NCBI GenBank assembly: GCA_024680915.1
Contig: JAILBN010000004.1
Coordinates: 1-44,278 of the forward strand
Reading direction: 5' to 3'
Origin: Treponemataceae bacterium
GTDB taxonomy: Bacteria > Spirochaetota > Spirochaetia > Treponematales > Treponemataceae
DNA: 44,278 bases
How positions within the stretch are numbered: the stretch's first letter is position 1; the number at the start of each line of letters is the position of its first letter. Below are positions 4,187-17,172 of the stretch, in pieces. Made by a program: the position numbers and the translations under genes. The notes beneath the pieces are model-generated. The model was not told the DNA's origin. It did no database searches and saw only the letters and a program-made list of their open reading frames with translations.

Positions 4187-7100
4187 ATGCAAAAAAAAGT
4201 AATTGCGGGGATTTTTCTAGGTATCGCCGTATCAACCTGTGCATTATTTTCTTCCGGCAAAAAAGAATTAGAGGAAATTTCAGTTCAAAATCTTGAAAGC
4301 TGGCAAGAGTCCTTTCCTATAGAAGAAAAAAAACCTGGTGTCTACAATATAATGGTCACTGCAAATGATAAAGGTGGTAATACCACTGTTGTCGGTCCCT
4401 ATAATATTTATATAGATCCGAATTCAGATCTTCCTGTATCTGGTATTACGAATCCTCATAACGGAATGAGGGTTCCGGGTAACCTTAATATAGTTGGAAC
4501 CTGTGTTGATGATGATGAAGTCAGCTATGTTGAGATAGTTCTTGATGGTAATGAGGAGAGGCCTGTAAGGGCTGAGGGAAAAGAGTTCTGGTCCTATTAT
4601 CTTGATACCTCAAAATTGGAGGAAGGAGAGCATACTGTTGCTGTTACGGGTGTCGATATATACGGGACCAGGGGTGAAACCATCTATGCTTCCTGGCATT
4701 TGGACAGAAAGCAGCCTATAACGGAAATAAGCAGTCATGGTATAGGTGAGCTTGTTTCTGGCAAAATAAAACTTGAAGGTGAAGTTAAAGATGGTAATGG
4801 GATAGAGTCCCTTGAGTATTCCTTGGATGGAGGAGTTACTTTTGAGGAGATATCTGTAAAATATAATAAGACGGATTTGAAATGGACTTTTTCACTCACC
4901 GTCGATACCAGGGATTTGGATGATGGACCTCAGGTATGTTGGTTCAGGGCAGAGGATACCCAAGGTTCTATAGGAGTCTCCTCCTATCTTTTCTTCGTTG
5001 ATAATACAAAGCCGGATGTGGATATTATTACTCCGGCAGAAGACGAGAGTGTGAACGGAATCTTTCAGATTGCAGGTTCTGCCTATGATGTCATAGGTCT
5101 TTCTTCTATGACTTGGGAATTTGAAAAAGAGAAAGGGGAATTTGATCTTATACCTGGTAATCCGTATTGGTTCAAGGAATTCGATGTACGTGAAATCAAT
5201 TCAAAAAAAGTGAAATTTTCTATTAATGTCGTTGATAAGGCAGGTAACGTCACAAAAGTCGATAGGACGATTACTATAGACAAAGAATCGGATTTTCCTG
5301 TCGTGGAGATTGTGGAGCCTGAAATTGATCCGACTTCAAAAACAGGTCCTCTCGTGGAGGATGAGTTCTATTTGCGTGGTAATGTAACCGATGATGACTG
5401 CGCTGCGGAATTCCACTGGTATATAGATAAGGACGGTGAGGATCATCTGTTAGAAACAGAGGGTGTTTTCTATGCGGATATTCTTAATTCTCTTCCGGAT
5501 AAGCTTTCGGTGGGAGAGCATACTCTTTTCTGCTATGCGGTCGATATAACCGGAGTAGTTGGTAATACTGTGAGCTTCCCCTTTACAATAAAGGGAGATT
5601 CCCCTGTCATTACTTTGGATACGGTTACTGAGAAAATAGATGGAAAGAACACTGATTCGGATTATATTCCTGGTATGGAGCTTCATCCTGAACGGGATGG
5701 AATCCTTAAAGGTACAGTATCCAGTGAGTGCGGTCTTACAGGAATCTCTTGGAAAATAAATGGTCGTGACAGCGGCTCTGAGATACTGAAGGGGACAAAA
5801 GATTCTGTGTCTTATGAAATTCCTCTTGATTCTGCTCCTTGGGGACTTGTCCAGATAGAGGTCAGTGCGGTTGATGTTTATGATAGGTCCGTTTCTGAGA
5901 AGTTTTTTGTTTACAGGACTAATCTCTCGAAAAACAGGGATTCTTCAGCCGTAGTTTTCTCAGATTCAACATCTGAGAATGGAATAATCAACTTTGCGGA
6001 TACAAAAACAGTCAGTGGTTATTTTACAGGTGGAAAAGCAGTATCCATTGCCTTGGAACCGGATGAGGGCTTTGCAAGAGCAAAGCTTTCTGGCAACAGC
6101 ATCATCCTTACCTCTACAGGAAAAACAGGAAAGTCTTCACCAACAAGAGTTATTGTCACTACTGATAAGGAGCTTGTATATAAGTCCTCTTCTCTTACCT
6201 TTGATGTAGAGCTTGCTGCCCCTGAGCTTATCCTTGATCAGACGACTTTGCTTGATGGCTTCAACAAGGTTTTTGTCAGCGGTCGTGTCGGTGAAGCTGG
6301 CTCCAGACTGAAAAAGCTTACTCTCTCAGCAGAAGAAATAAAGCAGGAAGCTCCGTATGAGGGCAGCATCGTCGCTGAATATCGTATCATAAAATCCGCG
6401 GAGGATATCGGTAACTGGAAAAAGCTTAGTTTATACGGAAGTGGAGATTTCTTTTTGGAGCTGAAGTCATCAGCTTTCGATGAAGGAATAACTATTATTG
6501 AGTTTGCTTCTTATGATTCTGGTAGTAAAAAAACTATAAAAGCGGCCGCGGTAAAAAAAGTATCACCTCTTCCTGCGCCGAATCCAGATGATCCGAAGGC
6601 GAAACCACCTGTAGCTGCGGCTCCTGTAATCCGCTGGATTCAGGGAGAACAACTTTATTTCACTTGTTATTATCAGGATAGTTTGTCTTTTACTTCTCTT
6701 ACGGCGGCAGGACAAAGTTTATTATCAACGGATGTGGATTTCCTTTTCCCTGAGGCCGGGGCTGTTCCTTACAGTTATTTCCCTGCAGGAAAGTCAAACG
6801 CCGAAATAAGGCTTGCTGACGTAAAAAACAAATCAGCTGTATTGAAAACGGATATCATAAGGCCGGGTAATGTTTCTGCAGTCATTGATTCCGTCAACGA
6901 TGTGACATACAGTTCAGGAATGCAGGTGGAGCTTCCGGCTCCTGGCTCAAAAAATCAGACGGCATCCATGAAGGTGAGGATTCATTCGGATCTACCCATA
7001 ACCTCATGCACATATTCTATAGCAGATAAGCCTTCTTCATCAGGTAAGGTTCAGAAGGTCACCGGTTCAGACGGAGTCGTTATTCCTGATGAATTTGAGG

Positions 7101-10100
7101 TTTATATCCCTTTGAAGGATGTGGAAGCTCTTTCTACGGACATAACGGTTTCATTCATAATAGACAAGACAATAAACAAGACCCTTAAGGGAACTATATC
7201 TGTGGTTAGAGCTCTTCCTGAAGCGGGAGTTGACGACAAGGAAAAGATATACTGGATAGAGCCCATGTTTAAGGATAAGTCCTATGGATATCTCCTTGAG
7301 AAGGATGTTCCTTTGTATGGCTTTGTGAATGTCTCTGCTCCTTATACGGTTCTTGTGAAATGTGAGCAGGAAGGTCTTTTTATAGAGCAATTTGGAAAAA
7401 CAGTAGCGGTAAAAGCAAAGAAGGAAGCTTTCTATGAGGATGTTTACCTTGTGGTCAGAGACAGCGAAGGTATCGAATATGAATCAGGAAAGGTTTCTTT
7501 TGCTGCTGATTATTCTGATCCAAGTGTTACTATACTCTCTCCAAAAAACCATGTTTGGATTCAGGAATCTGTTGGAATTTCTGTGGATGCACAGGACTCC
7601 AATGGTATTGGTTCCGTTGAATACTCCATTCATGATGGAAAGAACTGGCGAAAAATGGAGACTGACGAAAATGGTATTTACCAGGCTGAGGTTTCGGTAG
7701 CTGCTTTCAAAGACGGCTTGCTGCCACTTGATGTTCGTGTGACCGATAATACCGGAAAAACTTCTTACAAGCGGCTGACAATGGCTAAAGATACGCAGGC
7801 TCCTGTTGTGACGACTGTTCTTCCGGAGGCTGGGGCTTCTGTCAATGGACGGACTTTGTTTGTTGTAAAAGCGGAAGATAATGGGCGCATTGTGTCTGGA
7901 AAATGTGTACTTCCTGTTGTTTCAGAAAAAGAGAGCCCAGCTTCCGATGAAGAAGTTGAGGGAATTATTGAGGAAGAAGCTGAGGTAGTTATTGAGGAAG
8001 AAGAGCCGGTTGTCATCGATCTTGGTGATAAGAAAATCGTTTCTCTTGTAATCGGTGCAGAAGAGACACCACTATCTTCAGAGCTGTATTTTTCATATAC
8101 CGATGCAGCCGGAAATGTGGCTGATTATAAGGACAAGCCTTATAAAATCGATTTGGAGGCTGATAAACCACGGGTTGAGATTCATCTGCCTGATGATGAT
8201 ACAATATTGATTACGGATTTCACTGTGTCTGGAATAATTTATGACGATGACGGTGATTCCTACGTATGGTTCAGTATAGATGATGCTCCTCCTGTCCGTT
8301 CCAAGGAAGCTGCCTCAAACTGGTCCTTTGATATTAAGCTTGATTCTCTTGATGATAATGAACATACCATAACGGTCTTTGCGGAGGATATTCTGGGGGT
8401 TCGTGGAGATTCCGTACAAAAAATCATAAAAGTGTCACGGGAAGAACCGAAGGGAGAGGTTATTAGTCCTACCCTTGAAGAATCCTTGTCAGGAAGAATA
8501 TCGATTTCTGGAAAAGCGGCGGACGGCAATGGTATAAAATTGGTACAAATATCAATAGATAATGGAAATACATGGCAGGATGCGGTAGGCACAGAGGAAT
8601 GGAGTTATGCACTTGATACCCGGATTATCGAGGATGGAACACATGTCGTCTTCCTCAAAGTTTGGGATAATTATGATATCCAGGGCTTGTACTCCAGCCT
8701 TATAAATATTGATAATACCGCCCCTGATATTAATCTTGAGCTGCCTGTTGATGATATGTGCTTGAAGACAGGCAACTTAAAGCTTTCGGGCCATATGACG
8801 GACAATGTCGGTCTTTCAAAATTGTATGTAAAGATTCGTAATATGGATCCTGCTCAGCCAGAGGTTCCGGAGGAATTCGCATACAGGGAGCTTGATATAG
8901 AACAGATTATCAACTGTGATATCGATATTTCATCCCTTGAGAACGGATTCTATAATGTCGAGGTCACTGGTGAGGATGCAGCAAATAATATTACGAGGGT
9001 TTCAAGGAATATCTTGGTGGATTCCCGTGCCGAGCCTGTCGTTTTGAACCTTCTGTATCCTCTGGACGGAGAGCATATTTGTGGTAACTTCAGTATATAC
9101 GGAAATGCGGAAACAGAAGAAAAGCTGACAAACCTTTCTCTCCTTATGGATGGAAAGGAAATCGGAGGTACCACCGTTACCGAAACTAACCATTTCGTGT
9201 TTCAGCTTACACCCGAGCAGCTCATAGATGGTAATCACACCTATAAGGTAAGGACAACCCTTAATGACGGAAGTGTGATTTATTCGGAGGAGCAATCTTT
9301 CGTCTATGTGTCCACCGGACCTTGGGTTGCTGTTAATGGCTTTATTATGGGTGATTTTGCTATTGACCGCCCCTTTATCACTGGAGAGGCCGGTTACATT
9401 CTTTCTGATGAAGAGATGATGGCTCTTGAGTCGAAGGAAACGTCAAAATACGAAAGGAATCTTATCAAGCAGAAAGCTCTTGATAAGGTAGAGATAAGTC
9501 TGGATAACGGTAAAAGTTTCTTGCTTGTTGGTAATAAACCTGAATGGAAATTCCGTATAGAGAATGATGAGTATACGGAAGGCTCCCATCATGTGATCGT
9601 ACGGGCTACTATGAAAAATGGGGAGACTGCCGTCACCCGTACTATTTTCCAGATAGATAAGACTTCCCCTGTCGTTAAGCTTATAACGCCCAATGAAGCG
9701 GGTCGTTATAATAGTGTCATTTCATTTGCTGGTCTGTCCTCGGATGACGTTTCCCTGAGGGATGTCACACTTTCATTAAGGAGTGGTGATAAGTCGAATT
9801 ATGAGGTACCGTCGTTCATTCAGGGACTTTATCTTGAAGGCCATTTGTGGGGTGTAACATTATTCGATGTTGGTATCGGTCTTACCTTCTTTGATAATAA
9901 CGTAAAGCTGCAATTCCAGTATGGTCAGATGTTCCAGGGGCAGTTCGACTTTATGCATAATGTTATCGGAACGGACACTTCAGGTCTTCGCTATGGTGGT
10001 CACGTTTTCGGGGCAAAGCTTCTTGCGAATATTGCGTCTATCCCCTTCAGCTATTTCTTCGGGCCTGATCTGTCCTGGCTTAGTGCTACCTTCGGACTTG

Positions 10101-10336
10101 GAGCGAATTTCTCCATGTTTACGGAAACACAGAGTAAGAAGCCTCAGATTCTGTCTGCATTCCTAGGACAGATGGAATTCCCCAAGGTTACATTCAAAGA
10201 TAGGACAATGTTCAGTACATTCTCATTTTACACCGAGTTCCAAGTGTGGTTCATTCCGACGGATATAGAATCACAAGTTGATATAAACTCTATTGTCCCG
10301 CAATTAAGCTTCGGCTTACGCTTCAATGTGTTCTGA
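4187..10336 (+). CDS. giant exported Ig-like repeat protein with C-terminal beta-barrel-like domain
   Basis: 2049 residues with a clear Shine-Dalgarno GGAGG (4172-4176), 10 nt before ATG. A signal peptide is visible (residues 1 to about 22). A Cys at 18 does not sit in a convincing lipobox. About eleven Ig-like units of 90-100 residues follow, recognisable by a Pro-x-Val-x-Ile/Ser-Pro opening, an inner V/I-x-G strand, a DGNG(I) turn, YSLDGG- or ISIDNG-type strands and a closing xIDNTxP linker. Openings lie near residues 83, 175, 273, 368, 468, 1108, 1202, 1325, 1420, 1510, 1615 and 1827. Residues 580-1060 are more divergent. A Glu-rich linker lies near 1245-1285. The last ~180 residues are aromatic, alternating-polarity strands ending in FGLRFNVF, as expected of an outer-membrane barrel. 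It is probably a surface or envelope structural/adhesive protein; function is not established. Confidence 0.85.
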   Translation: MQKKVIAGIFLGIAVSTCALFSSGKKELEEISVQNLESWQESFPIEEKKPGVYNIMVTANDKGGNTTVVGPYNIYIDPNSDLPVSGITNPHNGMRVPGNLNIVGTCVDDDEVSYVEIVLDGNEERPVRAEGKEFWSYYLDTSKLEEGEHTVAVTGVDIYGTRGETIYASWHLDRKQPITEISSHGIGELVSGKIKLEGEVKDGNGIESLEYSLDGGVTFEEISVKYNKTDLKWTFSLTVDTRDLDDGPQVCWFRAEDTQGSIGVSSYLFFVDNTKPDVDIITPAEDESVNGIFQIAGSAYDVIGLSSMTWEFEKEKGEFDLIPGNPYWFKEFDVREINSKKVKFSINVVDKAGNVTKVDRTITIDKESDFPVVEIVEPEIDPTSKTGPLVEDEFYLRGNVTDDDCAAEFHWYIDKDGEDHLLETEGVFYADILNSLPDKLSVGEHTLFCYAVDITGVVGNTVSFPFTIKGDSPVITLDTVTEKIDGKNTDSDYIPGMELHPERDGILKGTVSSECGLTGISWKINGRDSGSEILKGTKDSVSYEIPLDSAPWGLVQIEVSAVDVYDRSVSEKFFVYRTNLSKNRDSSAVVFSDSTSENGIINFADTKTVSGYFTGGKAVSIALEPDEGFARAKLSGNSIILTSTGKTGKSSPTRVIVTTDKELVYKSSSLTFDVELAAPELILDQTTLLDGFNKVFVSGRVGEAGSRLKKLTLSAEEIKQEAPYEGSIVAEYRIIKSAEDIGNWKKLSLYGSGDFFLELKSSAFDEGITIIEFASYDSGSKKTIKAAAVKKVSPLPAPNPDDPKAKPPVAAAPVIRWIQGEQLYFTCYYQDSLSFTSLTAAGQSLLSTDVDFLFPEAGAVPYSYFPAGKSNAEIRLADVKNKSAVLKTDIIRPGNVSAVIDSVNDVTYSSGMQVELPAPGSKNQTASMKVRIHSDLPITSCTYSIADKPSSSGKVQKVTGSDGVVIPDEFEVYIPLKDVEALSTDITVSFIIDKTINKTLKGTISVVRALPEAGVDDKEKIYWIEPMFKDKSYGYLLEKDVPLYGFVNVSAPYTVLVKCEQEGLFIEQFGKTVAVKAKKEAFYEDVYLVVRDSEGIEYESGKVSFAADYSDPSVTILSPKNHVWIQESVGISVDAQDSNGIGSVEYSIHDGKNWRKMETDENGIYQAEVSVAAFKDGLLPLDVRVTDNTGKTSYKRLTMAKDTQAPVVTTVLPEAGASVNGRTLFVVKAEDNGRIVSGKCVLPVVSEKESPASDEEVEGIIEEEAEVVIEEEEPVVIDLGDKKIVSLVIGAEETPLSSELYFSYTDAAGNVADYKDKPYKIDLEADKPRVEIHLPDDDTILITDFTVSGIIYDDDGDSYVWFSIDDAPPVRSKEAASNWSFDIKLDSLDDNEHTITVFAEDILGVRGDSVQKIIKVSREEPKGEVISPTLEESLSGRISISGKAADGNGIKLVQISIDNGNTWQDAVGTEEWSYALDTRIIEDGTHVVFLKVWDNYDIQGLYSSLINIDNTAPDINLELPVDDMCLKTGNLKLSGHMTDNVGLSKLYVKIRNMDPAQPEVPEEFAYRELDIEQIINCDIDISSLENGFYNVEVTGEDAANNITRVSRNILVDSRAEPVVLNLLYPLDGEHICGNFSIYGNAETEEKLTNLSLLMDGKEIGGTTVTETNHFVFQLTPEQLIDGNHTYKVRTTLNDGSVIYSEEQSFVYVSTGPWVAVNGFIMGDFAIDRPFITGEAGYILSDEEMMALESKETSKYERNLIKQKALDKVEISLDNGKSFLLVGNKPEWKFRIENDEYTEGSHHVIVRATMKNGETAVTRTIFQIDKTSPVVKLITPNEAGRYNSVISFAGLSSDDVSLRDVTLSLRSGDKSNYEVPSFIQGLYLEGHLWGVTLFDVGIGLTFFDNNVKLQFQYGQMFQGQFDFMHNVIGTDTSGLRYGGHVFGAKLLANIASIPFSYFFGPDLSWLSATFGLGANFSMFTETQSKKPQILSAFLGQMEFPKVTFKDRTMFSTFSFYTEFQVWFIPTDIESQVDINSIVPQLSFGLRFNVF

Positions 10337-10384: not shown

Positions 10385-10420
10385 TTGAAATAAGATGCCT
10401 TATCTTATATATTTTTGGAC
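10385..10420 (+). promoter_or_regulatory. leaderless promoter of apbE with inverted repeat in the spacer
   Basis: -35 TTGAAA (10385-10390), 17-nt spacer, -10 TATATT (10408-10413), then 7 nt to the ATG at 10421. A 7-bp inverted repeat ATAAGAT-5-ATCTTAT (10390-10408) fills the spacer exactly and could be an operator. No Shine-Dalgarno sequence is present. Confidence 0.7.
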
Positions 10421-11446
10421 ATGAAAGATAGTAAGTCCTTTATATTTGTCCTTTTCATCATTTCTTTCCTGTTTTTTTCATGCGAGCAGAAAAAGAGTAC
10501 TGAGTCATTCAATGCAATGAATACCTTCATGACCATACAGGCATACGGATCAAAATCAGACAAAGCCCTTGCAGAAATAAAAAAAAGAGTCGAGAAACTC
10601 GAGGATACTATTTCAACGACTAAAGAAAACAGCGATCTTTTCAAGCTGAACAATAATTCAGGTGAGTATATAAAAGTACAGGAAGATACGGCAGAGCTTT
10701 TTGAATTCACCTTGGGAATGTATAAAGCGACTGAGAAGGCCCTTAACCCGGCTCTTTTCCCCGTGGTATCGGCCTGGGGTTTTACTACTGAAAAATACAG
10801 GATCCCCTCTGATGGGGAGCTTTCAGAGCTTCTTTCCCATACAGATTTCTTGAAAGTCGGGTTTTTGAAAAAGGATACAGGTCCGGAGCTTAAGCTCGAA
10901 GAGGGAATGAAACTTGATTTTGGTGCTGTGGGTAAAGGCTACGCCGCTGATGAATGTGTAACTATCCTTAAGGAATACGGTATAAAATCGGCTCTTATGG
11001 ATTTGGGAGGAAATGTTCAGGTGCTTGGTAAAAAGCCAGACGGCTCCTTGTGGACTGTGGGAATAAAAAATCCTTGGGGAGGAGAGGTGGTCTGCTCAGT
11101 GAAGATTTCTGACTGCGCAGTTGTGACCAGTGGTGGATACGAGCGTTATTTTTTAGGCGAAGATGGAAAAAGATATATACATATCTTTGATCCGGAAACA
11201 GGATATCCTGTGGAAAGTGATTTAGAAAGCGTTTCCATAATTTGTGACAGTGGTCTATATGCAGATTCATTAAGTACATCACTCTTCGTGATGGGAAAAG
11301 ACAAAGCCGTTTCTTGGTGGCAACGTAATGGCGGGTTTGATTTTATATTAATAACGAAAGAGGAAGAATTATTTATATCAGATGGAATAAAGGATCGTGT
11401 TCAGGTATTCTATCCTTTCAAGGCTGTTTATAACGTGAAATCTTGA
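10421..11446 (+). CDS. apbE: FAD:protein FMN transferase, lipoprotein (ApbE family)
   Basis: 341 residues from ATG 10421; the TTG two codons upstream is rejected because it lies between the -10 box and the ATG. A lipoprotein signal peptide ends FLFFSC with lipidation at Cys21, placing the enzyme on the outer face of a membrane. ApbE hallmarks are an early N-T-F-M-T-I strand, LDFGAVGKGYAAD, MDLGGNVQVLG, VTSGGYERYF, HIFDPETGYPV and the metal-binding YADSLSTSLFVMG. The enzyme transfers FMN from FAD to Thr/Ser of flavoproteins such as Rnf/Nqr subunits or exported FMN-binding proteins; none of these acceptors is in the window. It converges (19-nt overlap) on the Gx-transporter/NusG-II pair, a grouping that resembles FmnB with EetB and EetA. 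Confidence 0.95.
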   Translation: MKDSKSFIFVLFIISFLFFSCEQKKSTESFNAMNTFMTIQAYGSKSDKALAEIKKRVEKLEDTISTTKENSDLFKLNNNSGEYIKVQEDTAELFEFTLGMYKATEKALNPALFPVVSAWGFTTEKYRIPSDGELSELLSHTDFLKVGFLKKDTGPELKLEEGMKLDFGAVGKGYAADECVTILKEYGIKSALMDLGGNVQVLGKKPDGSLWTVGIKNPWGGEVVCSVKISDCAVVTSGGYERYFLGEDGKRYIHIFDPETGYPVESDLESVSIICDSGLYADSLSTSLFVMGKDKAVSWWQRNGGFDFILITKEEELFISDGIKDRVQVFYPFKAVYNVKS

Positions 11447-12480
11447 TTGCTGCCCAATGTTGCTTTTAATCTTGTGAAGATATTCCCCTTTGTATCCCTG
11501 AATCTGTCGGAAAGCTTCCTATAATAAGAGAGCGAAAGACCTAGGAGCGACTTCTCCGGAGGTCGTAAAGAAGCCGCGCACTGGCTTAAAGCACTTACCG
11601 CAGAAAGCTTCAGGGCTTTCTCAATACCAGACATTAAAGCTCCTTCTGTTATGGATATAAACTGCATGGAAAAAAGGACTTTTCCATTAGGTGTAAAAAG
11701 GGAGGATATCAATACGAAAAGCCAAAGAGAGATATGGGGAAGGATAAAAAGCTTACGTCCGCTTAATAATTGAAGCAGGATAGATAAAACAAAAGCAGCG
11801 CAAAGTAAAGGGATATTATCTATAAAGAAGATTCCAGCACTTGCTCCGATTATGACAGCTGCAAGAAGAATCTGAGTAATGGCTTTTTTTTGTTTTTTTT
11901 CAGATTTTTCCTCTTTATATAGAGAAGCTGCCTCCAATGCAGTTTTTTCTTCTTGTGGATGGCTTCCTTCTTCCTTTGGGTTCTCAGCTTCATTCAGGCT
12001 CTTCATTTTCTCTGCTATAAAAGCAGTTATTATACCGCTGGCCGTATTGAAAAGCAGCATGGGACCCAATAAGGAGAAGGTTCCTTGTCCTAAGAAAAGA
12101 CTGCATAAAAAGATTTGGACAAATGCGCTCAGGGCAGAGCCAGCAAGAGAGATTCCGTATATACTCATGATTTTTTTATTGCAGGCTTTGTTGAGCTTGA
12201 AAAGCAGTTGCATAAGAAGGGCGCTGGAAACAGACTGAGACAGAGAAATAAGGAAGAAGGGGGAAAAGAGAGTTCCTCCCATCAGGCTGGAGGCCACGGC
12301 TTTGATTACGGAAAGCAGGAAAAAGGCTGGAAAAGGCATTTCGAATGCCAGAAGAATTACGGTGTTTCCCAGTCCTAATCTGAAAAAGGGAATTATTCGG
12401 GGTAAAAGTAGTTCTGCATATGAAAAAAGTAAAGTGAGAGCGGAAAGATAGGCTATCTTTTTTTTATTCTGAAATTGCAT
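11428..12480 (-). CDS. Gx transporter family membrane protein (EetB-like) with EcfT-like C-terminal half
   Basis: 350 residues, highly hydrophobic. Residues 1 to about 165 form a Gx-transporter/heptaprenyl diphosphate synthase component I-type module (FFRLGLGN, helices rich in Gly and Ser, SLMGGTLFSPFFLISLSQS). A charged cytoplasmic linker follows (about 165-200, many Glu/Lys). A second bundle of helices ends in SGIEKALKLSAVSALSQCAASL and a basic amphipathic tail, reminiscent of EcfT/CbiQ transmembrane subunits. The usual Gx proteins are about half this length, so I read it as a fusion. The prenyl-synthase name is historical; no prenyltransferase motif is present. It overlaps the upstream NusG-II gene by 17 nt, implying an operon. 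The EcfT assignment is inference. Confidence 0.75.
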   Translation of the reverse strand: MQFQNKKKIAYLSALTLLFSYAELLLPRIIPFFRLGLGNTVILLAFEMPFPAFFLLSVIKAVASSLMGGTLFSPFFLISLSQSVSSALLMQLLFKLNKACNKKIMSIYGISLAGSALSAFVQIFLCSLFLGQGTFSLLGPMLLFNTASGIITAFIAEKMKSLNEAENPKEEGSHPQEEKTALEAASLYKEEKSEKKQKKAITQILLAAVIIGASAGIFFIDNIPLLCAAFVLSILLQLLSGRKLFILPHISLWLFVLISSLFTPNGKVLFSMQFISITEGALMSGIEKALKLSAVSALSQCAASLRPPEKSLLGLSLSYYRKLSDRFRDTKGNIFTRLKATLGSNQDFTL

Positions 12481-12820
12481 CGTAATCTTCCCCGTCTTCT
12501 ACCCTGATCAATACATTGTTGGGCATACAAATAAGAGGCGAACTCCATCCTTGGTTCACACATATTTTATTTTTACATGGAGAGTCTATTATGTGGACTT
12601 TCCCTTCTTTTATCTCGAATGTGGTTTCGCCTATAGCTCCTGTGACTGAATATGTACCATTGTTTGAAGCAGAGTATTCATATTGCTCTCCGTTGGCGAG
12701 CACAATGACCTTAGAACCTTTTTTTGAAAGAGATTTTATTGTAAGGAATAGACCAGCGGCAAGAAGTAAAGCAAGGATAATGAAGTCTAACGGGCGTAGT
12801 GCTGAAAACTTGAATTTCAT
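12464..12820 (-). CDS. NusG domain II-containing membrane-anchored protein (EetA-like)
   Basis: 118 residues from ATG 12820, with a further in-frame ATG at 12838. One N-terminal membrane anchor (FIILALLLAAGLFLTIKSL) is followed by an extracytoplasmic NusG-II beta domain with the signature SPCKNKICVNQGW...ICMPNNVLIRV. Two Cys surround the KNKI loop and a third lies in ICMP. Despite the name, it is unrelated to transcription. In Gram-positive flavin-based electron-transfer loci a protein of this class (EetA) pairs with a Gx-transporter protein (EetB), as here. The start choice is uncertain: a GGAGG abuts the upstream ATG too closely to serve it, whereas TATAAT ends 6 nt before ATG 12820. Confidence 0.8.
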   Translation of the reverse strand: MKFKFSALRPLDFIILALLLAAGLFLTIKSLSKKGSKVIVLANGEQYEYSASNNGTYSVTGAIGETTFEIKEGKVHIIDSPCKNKICVNQGWSSPLICMPNNVLIRVEDGEDYDAISE

Positions 12821-12855
12821 GGACAGATTATAATACATCCTCCGTTTTAAATGAA
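12821..12855 (-). promoter_or_regulatory. leaderless promoter of the NusG-II/Gx-transporter operon
   Basis: A perfect TATAAT on the minus strand (complement of 12827-12832) ends 6 nt before the ATG at 12820. The -35 at 17-nt spacing is weak (TTCATT). If real, it excludes the ATG at 12838 as the start from this promoter. Confidence 0.5.
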
Positions 12856-13042
12856 GCTATCTATATGTTTTTATTCAATTATTATTTATCTTCATTTATC
12901 AGCCAAAAGTTCCGATAATATTGAAAAACAGGTATAACTGTGTAATACTCTATTGTATAATATTCATGATTTGCGTAAGCATCAGTTATAAGCGGTTTTG
13001 TCTGTATTCCTTGTATATATTCTGAGGAGAAAGTTTTTTTTT

Positions 13043-14524
13043 ATGAGAAGATATTCTATAGTAACTGTTTTTTTGTGTATTATTTTTTCTCTTTCATTAT
13101 TTTCCAGCTGTGATCAGTTGTTTGAGACGACAGAAGCAGAAGCTGTGGGGCCTTTTTCTGTGACTTTCGTTACCAACGGAGGTACAGAAGTCACTGCTCT
13201 GTCTGTTGAGAATAATCAGGCTGCTACGAAACCGAGGGATCCGACAAAAATTAAATATACCTTTGATAGGGATAATCCTGGTGCATCAGGTGAGACTAAA
13301 TATGTCTTTATCGGCTGGTACAGTGACGTAGAGTTGACTAAACGCTTTGACTTCGCAACGAAAATCACTGAGAACAAGACTCTTTATGCCAAATGGAGGC
13401 CCATAGCTAAATCTAAAATATCTTTGACACCTTCAGGCGGTTCTTTGACTGAATATGAGAAAACTGAAGAAATCTATGCAATAGACAGAGAGAAGGTGGG
13501 TAGTAATTTAACTAGAATACCTGGTGGAATTCCTTCCTTTATAAGTGAGAGCGCAGATTCGGAAGACAAGGGTATTTTCATGTATTGGGCTGAGAGGACT
13601 GTCGGGTTGAGCCCCTTTATAATGAGCCGTTATGAAGTGACACGGGAACTTTATTCTGCAGTTATGACGGGTAATTCTTTTACTAGCAGTACTCCTGGGG
13701 TTACTATAAGAAATAGTGAAGGAAATGTCGTAAGCCCTGGTGATACCACTTATTCTATTGACCCTGCTCCATCCATTTGTGCAGGTGACGATTATCCTAT
13801 ACCAGAAGGTGAGAATGTTGCTAAAAGACCTGTGGATAACGTAACCTGGTATGATGCTGTTTATTTCTGTAACCGTCTTTCTGAAAGTCAAAACCTTACA
13901 GCTGCTTATACCGTAACCAATATGACATTGACATTGAATCCTGCTACTCAGGGGGGTGACACTCCTACAATCGGACATATTACGAATGCTTCTGTAAGCC
14001 AAGTTTCAGAAGCCACGGGATATAGGCTTCCGACAGAACTGGAATGGGAATTCGCCGCCCGTGGAGGAGATTCCTCTATTGATCCATGGAATTATATGTT
14101 CAGTGGTGCTGATACTGAAAATAGCAAAGCTTATAGCGATGTAAACAACTCCGGTCTTGATTCGGTGGGATGGTATGCGTTTAATGTAGCTAATGCAAAT
14201 GGAAAAACAGCCTTGATTATTCCTCCTGTCGGGGATGAGGCAAGAGTTGCCTGGGGTGCTCGTGAGGTTGGAAAAAAAGGATACAACGAGCTTGGCTTAT
14301 ATGATATGAGTGGAAATGTCGCGGAATGGTGCTTTGATACTCCTATATTTCTAGCAGATAAGGATCCTGCCGGGGCGACTGCAAGCAATGATAGGGTTGT
14401 CCGTGGTGGTTCATGGCATACCTCTGCTTCTGATTGTGTCGTTTCGCATCGTGATTTTGTAAATCCGAACACGAAAGCATCAGATATCGGCTTCCGTCTT
14501 GCCCGGAGTCTTCCTGCGAACTAA
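13043..14524 (+). CDS. lipoprotein with InlB B-repeat-like and SUMF1 (formylglycine-enzyme-like) domains
   Basis: 493 residues. The start at 13043 is chosen for the Shine-Dalgarno GAGGAG (13024-13029) and because a lipoprotein signal peptide then begins at residue 1 (LSLFSSC, Cys23); upstream in-frame codons would bury it. Residues ~36-115 resemble a Listeria-Bacteroides/InlB B-repeat: VTFVTNGGTEV...FIGWYSD...LYAKWRP. The rest is an SUMF1/FGE-sulfatase domain with MSRYEVTRELYSAVM, PVDNVTWYDAVYFCNRLS, GYRLPTELEWEFAARGG, YDMSGNVAEW and the closing RGGSW...IGFRLAR. The Cys pair used by true formylglycine-generating enzymes is not evident, so it is more likely a surface ligand-binding version. 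Treponemes carry many such lipoproteins. Confidence 0.88.
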   Translation: MRRYSIVTVFLCIIFSLSLFSSCDQLFETTEAEAVGPFSVTFVTNGGTEVTALSVENNQAATKPRDPTKIKYTFDRDNPGASGETKYVFIGWYSDVELTKRFDFATKITENKTLYAKWRPIAKSKISLTPSGGSLTEYEKTEEIYAIDREKVGSNLTRIPGGIPSFISESADSEDKGIFMYWAERTVGLSPFIMSRYEVTRELYSAVMTGNSFTSSTPGVTIRNSEGNVVSPGDTTYSIDPAPSICAGDDYPIPEGENVAKRPVDNVTWYDAVYFCNRLSESQNLTAAYTVTNMTLTLNPATQGGDTPTIGHITNASVSQVSEATGYRLPTELEWEFAARGGDSSIDPWNYMFSGADTENSKAYSDVNNSGLDSVGWYAFNVANANGKTALIIPPVGDEARVAWGAREVGKKGYNELGLYDMSGNVAEWCFDTPIFLADKDPAGATASNDRVVRGGSWHTSASDCVVSHRDFVNPNTKASDIGFRLARSLPAN

Positions 14525-14936: not shown

Positions 14937-15836
14937 TCATAAGTTGTTGTTGTCATCACTGATACCACCCCTGCATGAGACGATAAATTTACGAGCTGCG
15001 TTCGATATATAGCCTTTTTCGACTGCAAGGGAAATATATCTTTCATCAAGCTTTTCCTGAATCTTTATGATTTTTAGTTCCTTCTTCCTCAGTTCATCTT
15101 CTATATATTGCTTGGCAACACAAATAATACCCATGTTTTTTTTGCAGAACTCAATCAAAAGATCAAGGGAAGCAAGCTCGAATTTGGGTTTAAGCTTTAC
15201 ACCATACTTCATAAGATTTATATCAAGCATCCTGCGGGAATAGCTGGATTCTTCAAGAAGAAGAGTCCTGTATGCCGTAAGGTCTGAGAAATGTTTTATA
15301 TTGGAATCATCGAAATCATAGGCACAGACAAAGTAATCATTTAAGGTAAGGCATTCCGAAAAATCGAAGTCAGAATCAGGAAGGGGTGTGTGAACGAATG
15401 AGATATCCACCTTTTTTTGCTTCAGAAGCTCCAAGGATTCCTGGGTGGTGCAATTGGTGACCCGGTAGCGGATTTTGGGATAAAGCTTCTCGAACTCTTT
15501 AAGCTTATCAATAAGGTAGTATTTACAGATTGTGTCAGAGGCTCCAATGTTAAGAATTCCTGTATCAAGCGTTGATAAATCTTGCAAAGTCTGGTTCATT
15601 GTTTCTATTTGCTTAAAAATAGACTTGCAGTGATTATACATTTCCACTGCTTCCGTAGTAAGCTTTACGCCTTTTTGTTCTCTTATGAAGAGCTGAAAAC
15701 CTGTTTCATACTCAAGATTCTTTATATGCTGGCTCACAGCAGGTTGTGATATATGGAGCTTGCCTGCCGCACGGGAGATGTTTCCTTCCTCGGCCACAAA
15801 ATAAAAAATTCTAAGCAGATTAAGGTCATTTATCAT
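14937..15836 (-). CDS. LysR family transcriptional regulator
   Basis: 299 residues, standard LysR length. The N-terminal winged HTH is clear (LNLLRIFYFVAEEGNISRAA, LHISQPAVSQHIKNLE, FIREQKGVKLT), followed by a linker helix and a periplasmic-binding-protein-like effector domain. The ATG follows AAGGG at 6-nt spacing. It is divergent from the CofE-like gene, with a LysR-box-like palindrome between them, so it probably controls that gene and itself. The effector is unknown. Confidence 0.94.
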   Translation of the reverse strand: MINDLNLLRIFYFVAEEGNISRAAGKLHISQPAVSQHIKNLEYETGFQLFIREQKGVKLTTEAVEMYNHCKSIFKQIETMNQTLQDLSTLDTGILNIGASDTICKYYLIDKLKEFEKLYPKIRYRVTNCTTQESLELLKQKKVDISFVHTPLPDSDFDFSECLTLNDYFVCAYDFDDSNIKHFSDLTAYRTLLLEESSYSRRMLDINLMKYGVKLKPKFELASLDLLIEFCKKNMGIICVAKQYIEDELRKKELKIIKIQEKLDERYISLAVEKGYISNAARKFIVSCRGGISDDNNNL

Positions 15837-15990: not shown

Positions 15991-17172
15991 ATGAAATTCA
16001 GCGGTACAATATCAAGAGGAGTAAGAACTCCTATCATAAAGAAGGGGGATGATTTACCCTCAATCGTAGTCGAGTCTATTGGAAATTGTGTGAAAGAAGC
16101 GGGAATAGAGCTTAATGACAGGGATGTGGTTGCCGTTACAGAGGCTGTCGTTGGTATCTCCCAGGGAAATTATGCTACGGCTGATCAAATAGGAAAGGAC
16201 GTTAAAAACAAATTCGGTGATGCTACAGTAGGTCTTATATTCCCTATAATGAGCCGGAATCGTTTCTCCATGCTTTTGAAGGGTATTTCCAGGGGCTGTA
16301 AAAAGCTTATAGTAATGCTTTCCTATCCTGGGGATGAAGTGGGAAATAAGCTTATTTCTCCAGATTTACTTATGGATTCTGGAATTAACCCCTATTCTGA
16401 TGTTTTCACTGCAGAGGAGTTTCATAAGATTTTCCCCAATACTGTACACCAGTTCACAGGTGTGGATTATATCCAGTATTACAAAGATGCCTGCGAGTGC
16501 GAATGTGAGATTATCCTTGCCAATGACCCCAGGGCAATCCTGAAATATACAGACAACGTGATTGTAGCTTCTATCCATGAAAGAAAGCGCAACAAGAAAA
16601 TCCTTGAGAAAGCGGGGGTAAAGAAGTGCTACTGCTTGGACGAGCTTCTTACTGAAAGTGTGGATGGTTCGGGCTTCAACGAGAAATTCGGTCTTCTCGG
16701 CTCAAATCTGGCCACAGAAAATTCCGTGAAGCTTTTCCCCCGTAACTGTCAGGCTCTGGTAGAAGATATCCAGGCAAGACTGAAGAAAATCTATAACAAG
16801 AATATTGAGGTTATGGTATATGGCGACGGCGCCTTCAAGGACCCTCAGGGAGGAATCTGGGAGCTTGCCGATCCTGTAGTTTCCCCCGGTTTCACCAGTG
16901 GTCTTGTGGGAACTCCGAATGAGCTTAAGCTTAAATATCTTTCTGATAATGAATTCAAGGGGCTTAAGGGAGAAGAGCTGAAAGATGCCATGATCAAGAG
17001 AATCAAGGCGAAGGATGCCAATCTTAAGGGCCGTATGGAGACACAGGGAACGACACCCCGTCAGCTTACTGACCTTCTTGGAAGTCTTTCTGACCTTACC
17101 TCCGGTTCCGGTGACAAGGGAACTCCTGTTATTCTGATTCAGAATTACTTCAGCAACTACGCTGACCAATAA
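15991..17172 (+). CDS. CofE-like (coenzyme F420-0:L-glutamate ligase family) protein
   Basis: 393 residues preceded by GAAGGAG at good spacing. Conserved features are an N-terminal RGVRTPIIKKGDDL, DVVAVTEAVVGISQGNY, GLIFPIMSRNRFSMLLKGI, an internal Cys-rich CECECE patch, MVYGDGAFKDPQGGIWELADPVV, and a C-terminal TPRQLTDLLGSLSDL plus PVILIQN. CofE adds gamma-linked glutamates to F420-0, yet no other F420 biosynthesis gene is in the window and treponemes are not known to make F420. Relatives in non-F420 bacteria have been proposed to glutamylate other acceptors; a chlamydial homologue acts on folate. The substrate here is therefore open. The protein is longer than archaeal CofE. Regulation by the divergent LysR is likely. 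Confidence 0.85.
   Translation: MKFSGTISRGVRTPIIKKGDDLPSIVVESIGNCVKEAGIELNDRDVVAVTEAVVGISQGNYATADQIGKDVKNKFGDATVGLIFPIMSRNRFSMLLKGISRGCKKLIVMLSYPGDEVGNKLISPDLLMDSGINPYSDVFTAEEFHKIFPNTVHQFTGVDYIQYYKDACECECEIILANDPRAILKYTDNVIVASIHERKRNKKILEKAGVKKCYCLDELLTESVDGSGFNEKFGLLGSNLATENSVKLFPRNCQALVEDIQARLKKIYNKNIEVMVYGDGAFKDPQGGIWELADPVVSPGFTSGLVGTPNELKLKYLSDNEFKGLKGEELKDAMIKRIKAKDANLKGRMETQGTTPRQLTDLLGSLSDLTSGSGDKGTPVILIQNYFSNYADQ

Follow-up and report, generated by a model that had tools for sequence, protein, structure and literature searches.

An EetB-EcfT fusion grouped with EetA and ApbE: a probable FAD-supply module for periplasmic flavinylation in a spirochaete

A probable locus for flavin supply

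Three neighbouring genes of a spirochaete that belongs to the Treponema family, encoding an ApbE lipoprotein, EetA and an EetB-EcfT fusion (EetB-T), quite probably make up a periplasmic flavinylation supply module, in which FAD would be exported via EetB-T and FMN attached to client proteins by ApbE. The genes lie in the window, the whole 44,278-nt stretch of DNA that was analysed, which is contig C20 of a 3.15-Mb, 134-contig genome, 95.7% complete. Because the assembly holds no UbiA, NDH-2-like or PplA-type protein, and because in Listeria eetA is dispensable and EetB is the FAD-export subunit, the locus is most likely only the flavin-supply half of the Listeria electron-transfer system, in rearranged form, and not an electron wire. 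The module is of a known kind in variant form, and fusions of the EetB-ECF-T type had been described before, by Rivera-Lugo and colleagues (PMC9973259).

Gene organization

The features of the locus are as follows.

apbE, 10415..11446, plus strand: ApbE/Ftp FAD:protein FMN transferase, a 343-aa lipoprotein (Pfam PF02424, E=1.6e-81)
eetB-T, 11428..12480, minus strand: EetB-EcfT fusion, 350 aa (PF07456, Hpre_diP_synt_I, 2.9e-20; CbiQ, 0.0012)
EetB S-component domain, residues 1-170, 11971..12480, minus strand: structural match to TmRibU 5kc0
EcfT-like domain, residues 200-350, 11428..11883, minus strand: truncated as modelled, with structural matches to EcfT/CbiQ
eetA, 12464..12838, minus strand: one TM helix and an extracytosolic NusG_II domain (PF07009, 4.2e-19)
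eetB/apbE 3'-end overlap, 11428..11446: 19 nt, convergent genes

With 17 nt shared between their reading frames, eetA and eetB (12838-11428, minus strand) form an operon, which converges on apbE; there the overlap is 19 nt, at the 3' end of either gene. The original prediction, of an ApbE lipoprotein facing an operon of a NusG-II protein and a Gx-transporter protein, is borne out by the matches to PF02424, PF07009 and PF07456; the HMM searches that it proposed for NusG_II and Hpre_diP_synt_I both returned hits (4e-19 and 3e-20, respectively). 'Gx transporter' is also the annotation of the Treponema saccharophilum counterpart of the fusion. No Rfam riboswitch was found in the window.

The surrounding DNA has features of its own. 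The gene immediately before apbE, in the same orientation (4187-10336), encodes a 2049-aa exported protein with bacterial Ig repeats. The exported protein encoded at 12998-14524 combines Listeria-Bacteroides repeats with a formylglycine-generating-enzyme-like domain, and a LysR-type regulator gene (14937-15836) is divergent to a gene (15991-17172) for a 393-aa protein that, in its N-terminal part, weakly matches F420-0:glutamate ligase (CofE).

EetB as an S-component fused to an EcfT-like domain

EetB is the only PF07456 protein in the genome and, at 350 aa, is about twice the length of the PF07456 domain because it carries a fused EcfT-like domain. Its C-terminal half gives a weak match to CbiQ (EcfT; E=0.0012), and in several spirochaete relatives the T region is a separate ORF adjoining EetB. 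In an AlphaFold2 model of EetB-T, built with 86 spirochaete sequences (mean pLDDT 89), residues 1-170 superpose on TmRibU (5kc0) with a VIA-align Z of 14.3 and an rmsd of 2.9 Å over 155 residues, and residues 200-350 on EcfT (7nnu_D) with a Z of 9.9 and an rmsd of 4.1 Å. None of the Foldseek E-values for the model is significant, and the fold claim therefore rests on S-component and EcfT rows that stand well above unrelated folds. When the C-terminal domain was predicted alone, all of the top ten structural matches were EcfT/CbiQ (Z 10.9-6.7), the next, unrelated row scoring 4.9. Nine of these ten matches span the membrane part only (model residues about 10-117); with 8bms_C, 152 residues of the T-domain model align to EcfT residues 17-222 of 263. 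As modelled, the window's EetB is an S-component fused to a truncated EcfT-like domain. In two genomes from one spirochaete family (L013:1970-3432 and L018:1-1466), an EcfT-like ORF beside EetB continues into phosphoglucomutase/phosphomannomutase-like sequence, an odd fusion.

Of the features of an EetB-type exporter, the PF07456 S-component with ECF-S fold is present, as is the ECF-T partner, fused; conserved X-Arg-X anchors for ECF-A/A' on the T subunit are lacking in the spirochaete EetB-linked T domains. Such motifs, on the coupling helices of EcfT, anchor ECF-A/A' (PMC10368641). Among 64 spirochaete EetB-linked T domains, Arg does not exceed 34% in any alignment column beyond the last membrane helix that all have in common. 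Of the five canonical EcfTs that the window's genome encodes, three have two motifs by a simple X-Arg-X pattern, one has a single motif and one has none. One weak profile alignment places a conserved Asp, replaced by Lys in the window protein, near the expected first anchor position. An A/S-R-G/S/A triplet occurs somewhere in the C-terminal part of 14 of the 86 fusions, so individual exceptions to anchor loss may exist.

These properties bear on how export is powered. FAD export in Listeria requires EcfA/EcfA' (PMC9973259), and with a T domain that has no conserved ATPase anchors this mechanism may not carry over to spirochaete EetB-T. Listeria FmnA can, according to published work, replace EcfT in import and by implication would carry the anchors. 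Two canonical ECF ATPase sets are encoded elsewhere in the window's genome (contigs C78 and C16). Hypothetically, EetB-T could draw on shared ECF ATPases through an unusual contact, or work ATPase-free with ApbE as FAD sink. The latter idea, in which the anchor-less T domain would do no more than offer the S-component a scaffold on which to dock and topple, and irreversible consumption of periplasmic FAD by ApbE would pull export, is a tentative one that we hold to be rather less probable than its negation. The idea that small Treponema genomes are devoid of any ECF module, which would oblige EetB-T to be ATPase-free, is not supported, as the 1.1-Mb genome G056 has a BioY-EcfA-EcfT set. TIGR04520 was not discriminating, having no match over cut-off in five genomes, some with clear ECF modules.

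FAD as substrate and the outward direction of transport are taken by analogy from Listeria, where EetB is a FAD-exporting ECF S-component that binds FAD and is required for export (PMC9973259); an S-component fold alone gives neither substrate nor direction. EetB-T might instead be a vitamin importer that takes up riboflavin or another precursor, its proximity to ApbE reflecting nothing beyond a shared flavin theme, as could be argued from the S half being best matched by RibU, a riboflavin importer subunit. This reading is improbable, given that Listeria EetB is unable to replace RibU in flavin uptake yet is required for flavinylation, and that EetB is repeatedly paired with ApbE and FMN_bind reductases.

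EetA and ApbE

EetA consists of one N-terminal hydrophobic helix followed by the NusG_II domain, for which the solved relatives are 4esn and 2kpp. In an alignment of 23 sequences, the extracytosolic domain has an invariant S-x-C-x4-C ... C-x-P-N pattern with three cysteines. Deletion of eetA in Listeria leaves electron transfer unimpaired (PMC9973259) and EetB exports FAD, from which it follows that the EetA/EetB pair marks the FAD supply for flavinylation and not an electron path.

The translation of 10415-11446 (plus strand) contains the lipobox LFFSC, and the protein is the sole ApbE match in the genome. The nearest solved structures are 7esa and T. pallidum Ftp (4ifu). At a position occupied by Tyr in 4xdt and by Asn in 4ifu, the window's ApbE has Thr, a residue from which we predict that it falls, with the Ftp proteins of T. 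pallidum and T. denticola, into the class of non-yellow, FAD-hydrolysing enzymes.

Likely flavinylation targets and redox setting

The genome encodes four FMN_bind (PF04205) domains in three proteins.

RnfG, contig C5, within the Rnf operon: FMN_bind
598-aa lipoprotein, contig C76: one FMN_bind and FAD_binding_2
863-aa lipoprotein, contig C14: two FMN_bind and FAD_binding_2

Both lipoproteins score as flavocytochrome c/fumarate-reductase-like proteins. SGAT-type acceptor motifs can be read from the translations of RnfG, RnfD and the two lipoproteins, and the likely ApbE clients are RnfG, RnfD and these two lipoprotein flavin reductases with their three FMN_bind domains. Flavin-reductase genes adjoin EetAB in several spirochaetes, FMN_bind being confirmed by Pfam in two (L079 and L088). 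One genome of the same genus (G309, 93% complete) is without any FMN_bind domain. In three others of the genus (G320:C99, G329:C246 and G215:C22) there are FMN_bind frames of 123-162 aa, possibly stand-alone PplA-like carriers.

ApbE, EetA and EetB all belong to the Listeria EET cluster, as the original prediction had stated, and from this likeness it had proposed that the locus is the core of a FLEET-like chain running from NADH through Ndh2, demethylmenaquinone and PplA to the outside. What it remarked of the window, the lack of genes like those for PplA, Ndh2 and Dmk, is true of the whole assembled genome as well, and the chain itself does not hold up. No match to UbiA (PF01040) occurs in the window's genome, whereas 14 of 14 control genomes match; UbiA is over cut-off in 8 of 60 genomes of the family, none of the eight in the same genus. 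On inspection of their sequences, the Pyr_redox_2 proteins look like TrxB, GltD-type, MnmG and glycerol-metabolism-type enzymes and not NDH-2, and none is in the window's cluster. The search for PplA-type proteins led only to RnfG and the flavin reductases, and a lipoprotein of FMN_bind domains alone was not found in the assembly. Since the operational definition of such electron transfer asks that the flavinylation cluster include an NDH-2 that bears a TM helix (PMC8238504), the absence of UbiA, NDH-2-like and PplA-type proteins means that this is not an EET system by that definition. A FLEET-like chain is thus largely refuted and very unlikely, the more so with eetA dispensable in Listeria and EetB a FAD exporter there. 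A genome lacking both a quinone and any FMN-binding lipoprotein had been named in advance as evidence against such a chain: quinone synthesis is indeed absent, and FMN-binding lipoproteins are present, as flavin reductases and not as PplA. A component of heptaprenyl diphosphate synthase for quinone side chains, which the Pfam family name alone suggests, is highly improbable, as EetB has the ECF S-component fold and, without UbiA, a prenyl chain would not find its way into quinones.

NapH-like proteins (PF12801) were considered as electron feeders and rejected, since neither of the two has a flavinylated protein as its neighbour in the short sequences examined. The stronger of the two, a membrane iron-sulphur protein, is encoded next to a TlpA-like thioredoxin gene (L161, G000:C39), and together they may serve periplasmic thiol reduction.

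The supply module would operate in the following steps. EetB-T, an S-component on an EcfT-like scaffold, would move FAD from cytosol to periplasm, and the membrane-anchored NusG_II domain of EetA, hypothetically, would help to hand it on. The lipoprotein ApbE would split FAD and transfer FMN to Thr residues within SGAT motifs, both in the Rnf subunits G and D and in the two periplasmic lipoprotein flavin reductases, which are fumarate/urocanate-reductase-like. Because the quinone pathway was not found, electrons would reach the flavinylated targets via Rnf (ferredoxin or flavodoxin/NADH) rather than from quinol; the electron donor of the reductases is hypothetical.

Comparison with known systems

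The closest comparison is with EetB-FmnA-EcfA-EcfA' and FmnB of Listeria monocytogenes (PMC9973259), which shares with the window the PF07456 S-component, an ECF-T partner, the EetA neighbour and the ApbE lipoprotein. The Listeria exporter supplies FAD for flavinylation, and by analogy the same role is proposed here. Unlike in Listeria, S and T are in one chain, with T truncated and devoid of conserved ATPase anchors; ECF-A genes are not found beside EetB-T in the window, the host is a diderm, and its genome is without PplA, Ndh2 and DmkA/B. The gene eetB is widely co-localised with apbE and Rnf, and EetA-EetB of Clostridia serve Rnf flavinylation (PMC9973259), whereas the Rnf genes of the window's genome are on another contig, C5. 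The Ftp proteins of T. pallidum and T. denticola are, like the window's ApbE, lipoproteins, and they serve an Rnf metabolism that is based on flavins and does without quinones (PMC4767422, PMC7512555); in the sections available, the Ftp pathway comes with no mention of a FAD exporter, a step for which EetB-T is a candidate.

Distribution and history in Spirochaetota

Fused EetB-T proteins are widespread in Spirochaetota. A sample of 296 genomes from the phylum contains 138 with PF07456, among them most of those of the same family and the single-contig, 1.1-Mb G056. In a tree of EetB sequences, the window's EetB falls among other spirochaete EetB proteins, many of them with EetA.

Among the 38 spirochaete EetB loci that have 5 kb or more of downstream sequence, 8 have ApbE in the flanking DNA, and in five of these it directly adjoins EetB in convergent orientation. 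The order of eetA and eetB-T converging on apbE recurs in L025, L060, L061, L064, L065, L074, L090 and L095, with the T part a separate ORF in L025 and L064. Plasmid pTS2 of T. saccharophilum (NZ_AP025290) has a three-gene layout identical to the window's, with an EetB 50% identical; there the module is on a 382-kb plasmid, and here on an unassigned contig. Because ApbE is near 8 of 38 EetB loci and the layout is repeated on pTS2, the three-gene order is not due to chance. In classic Treponema (T. putidum, Brucepastera and G056), EetB-T adjoins a SlyD-like gene or follows closely after it, and neither EetA nor ApbE is adjacent, as at locus L008 of G056, a member of the same family; this absence counts against the supply-module reading.

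In a maximum-likelihood tree, the EetB proteins of the window and T. saccharophilum join those of Sphaerochaetaceae type in a clade of 16 rows (100/100), and both sit apart from most Treponemataceae copies. This grouping suggests that EetB was transferred within the phylum, which is, given the arbitrary root, an inference.

Implications

Treponemes are thought to use flavin-based, quinone-free redox chemistry, with flavins on periplasmic proteins, and the treponeme literature, in the portions at hand, gives no route for FAD across the inner membrane. The EetB-EcfT fusion, present across Spirochaetota, is a concrete candidate for this crossing. If the T domain is truly without ATPase coupling, it would bear on the question, regarded as unsettled by the Listeria authors (PMC9973259), of how proteins of the ECF type can export in the first place, and an ATPase-free EetB-T would be the flavin-delivery step of the quinone-less, Rnf-based energy metabolism of treponemes.
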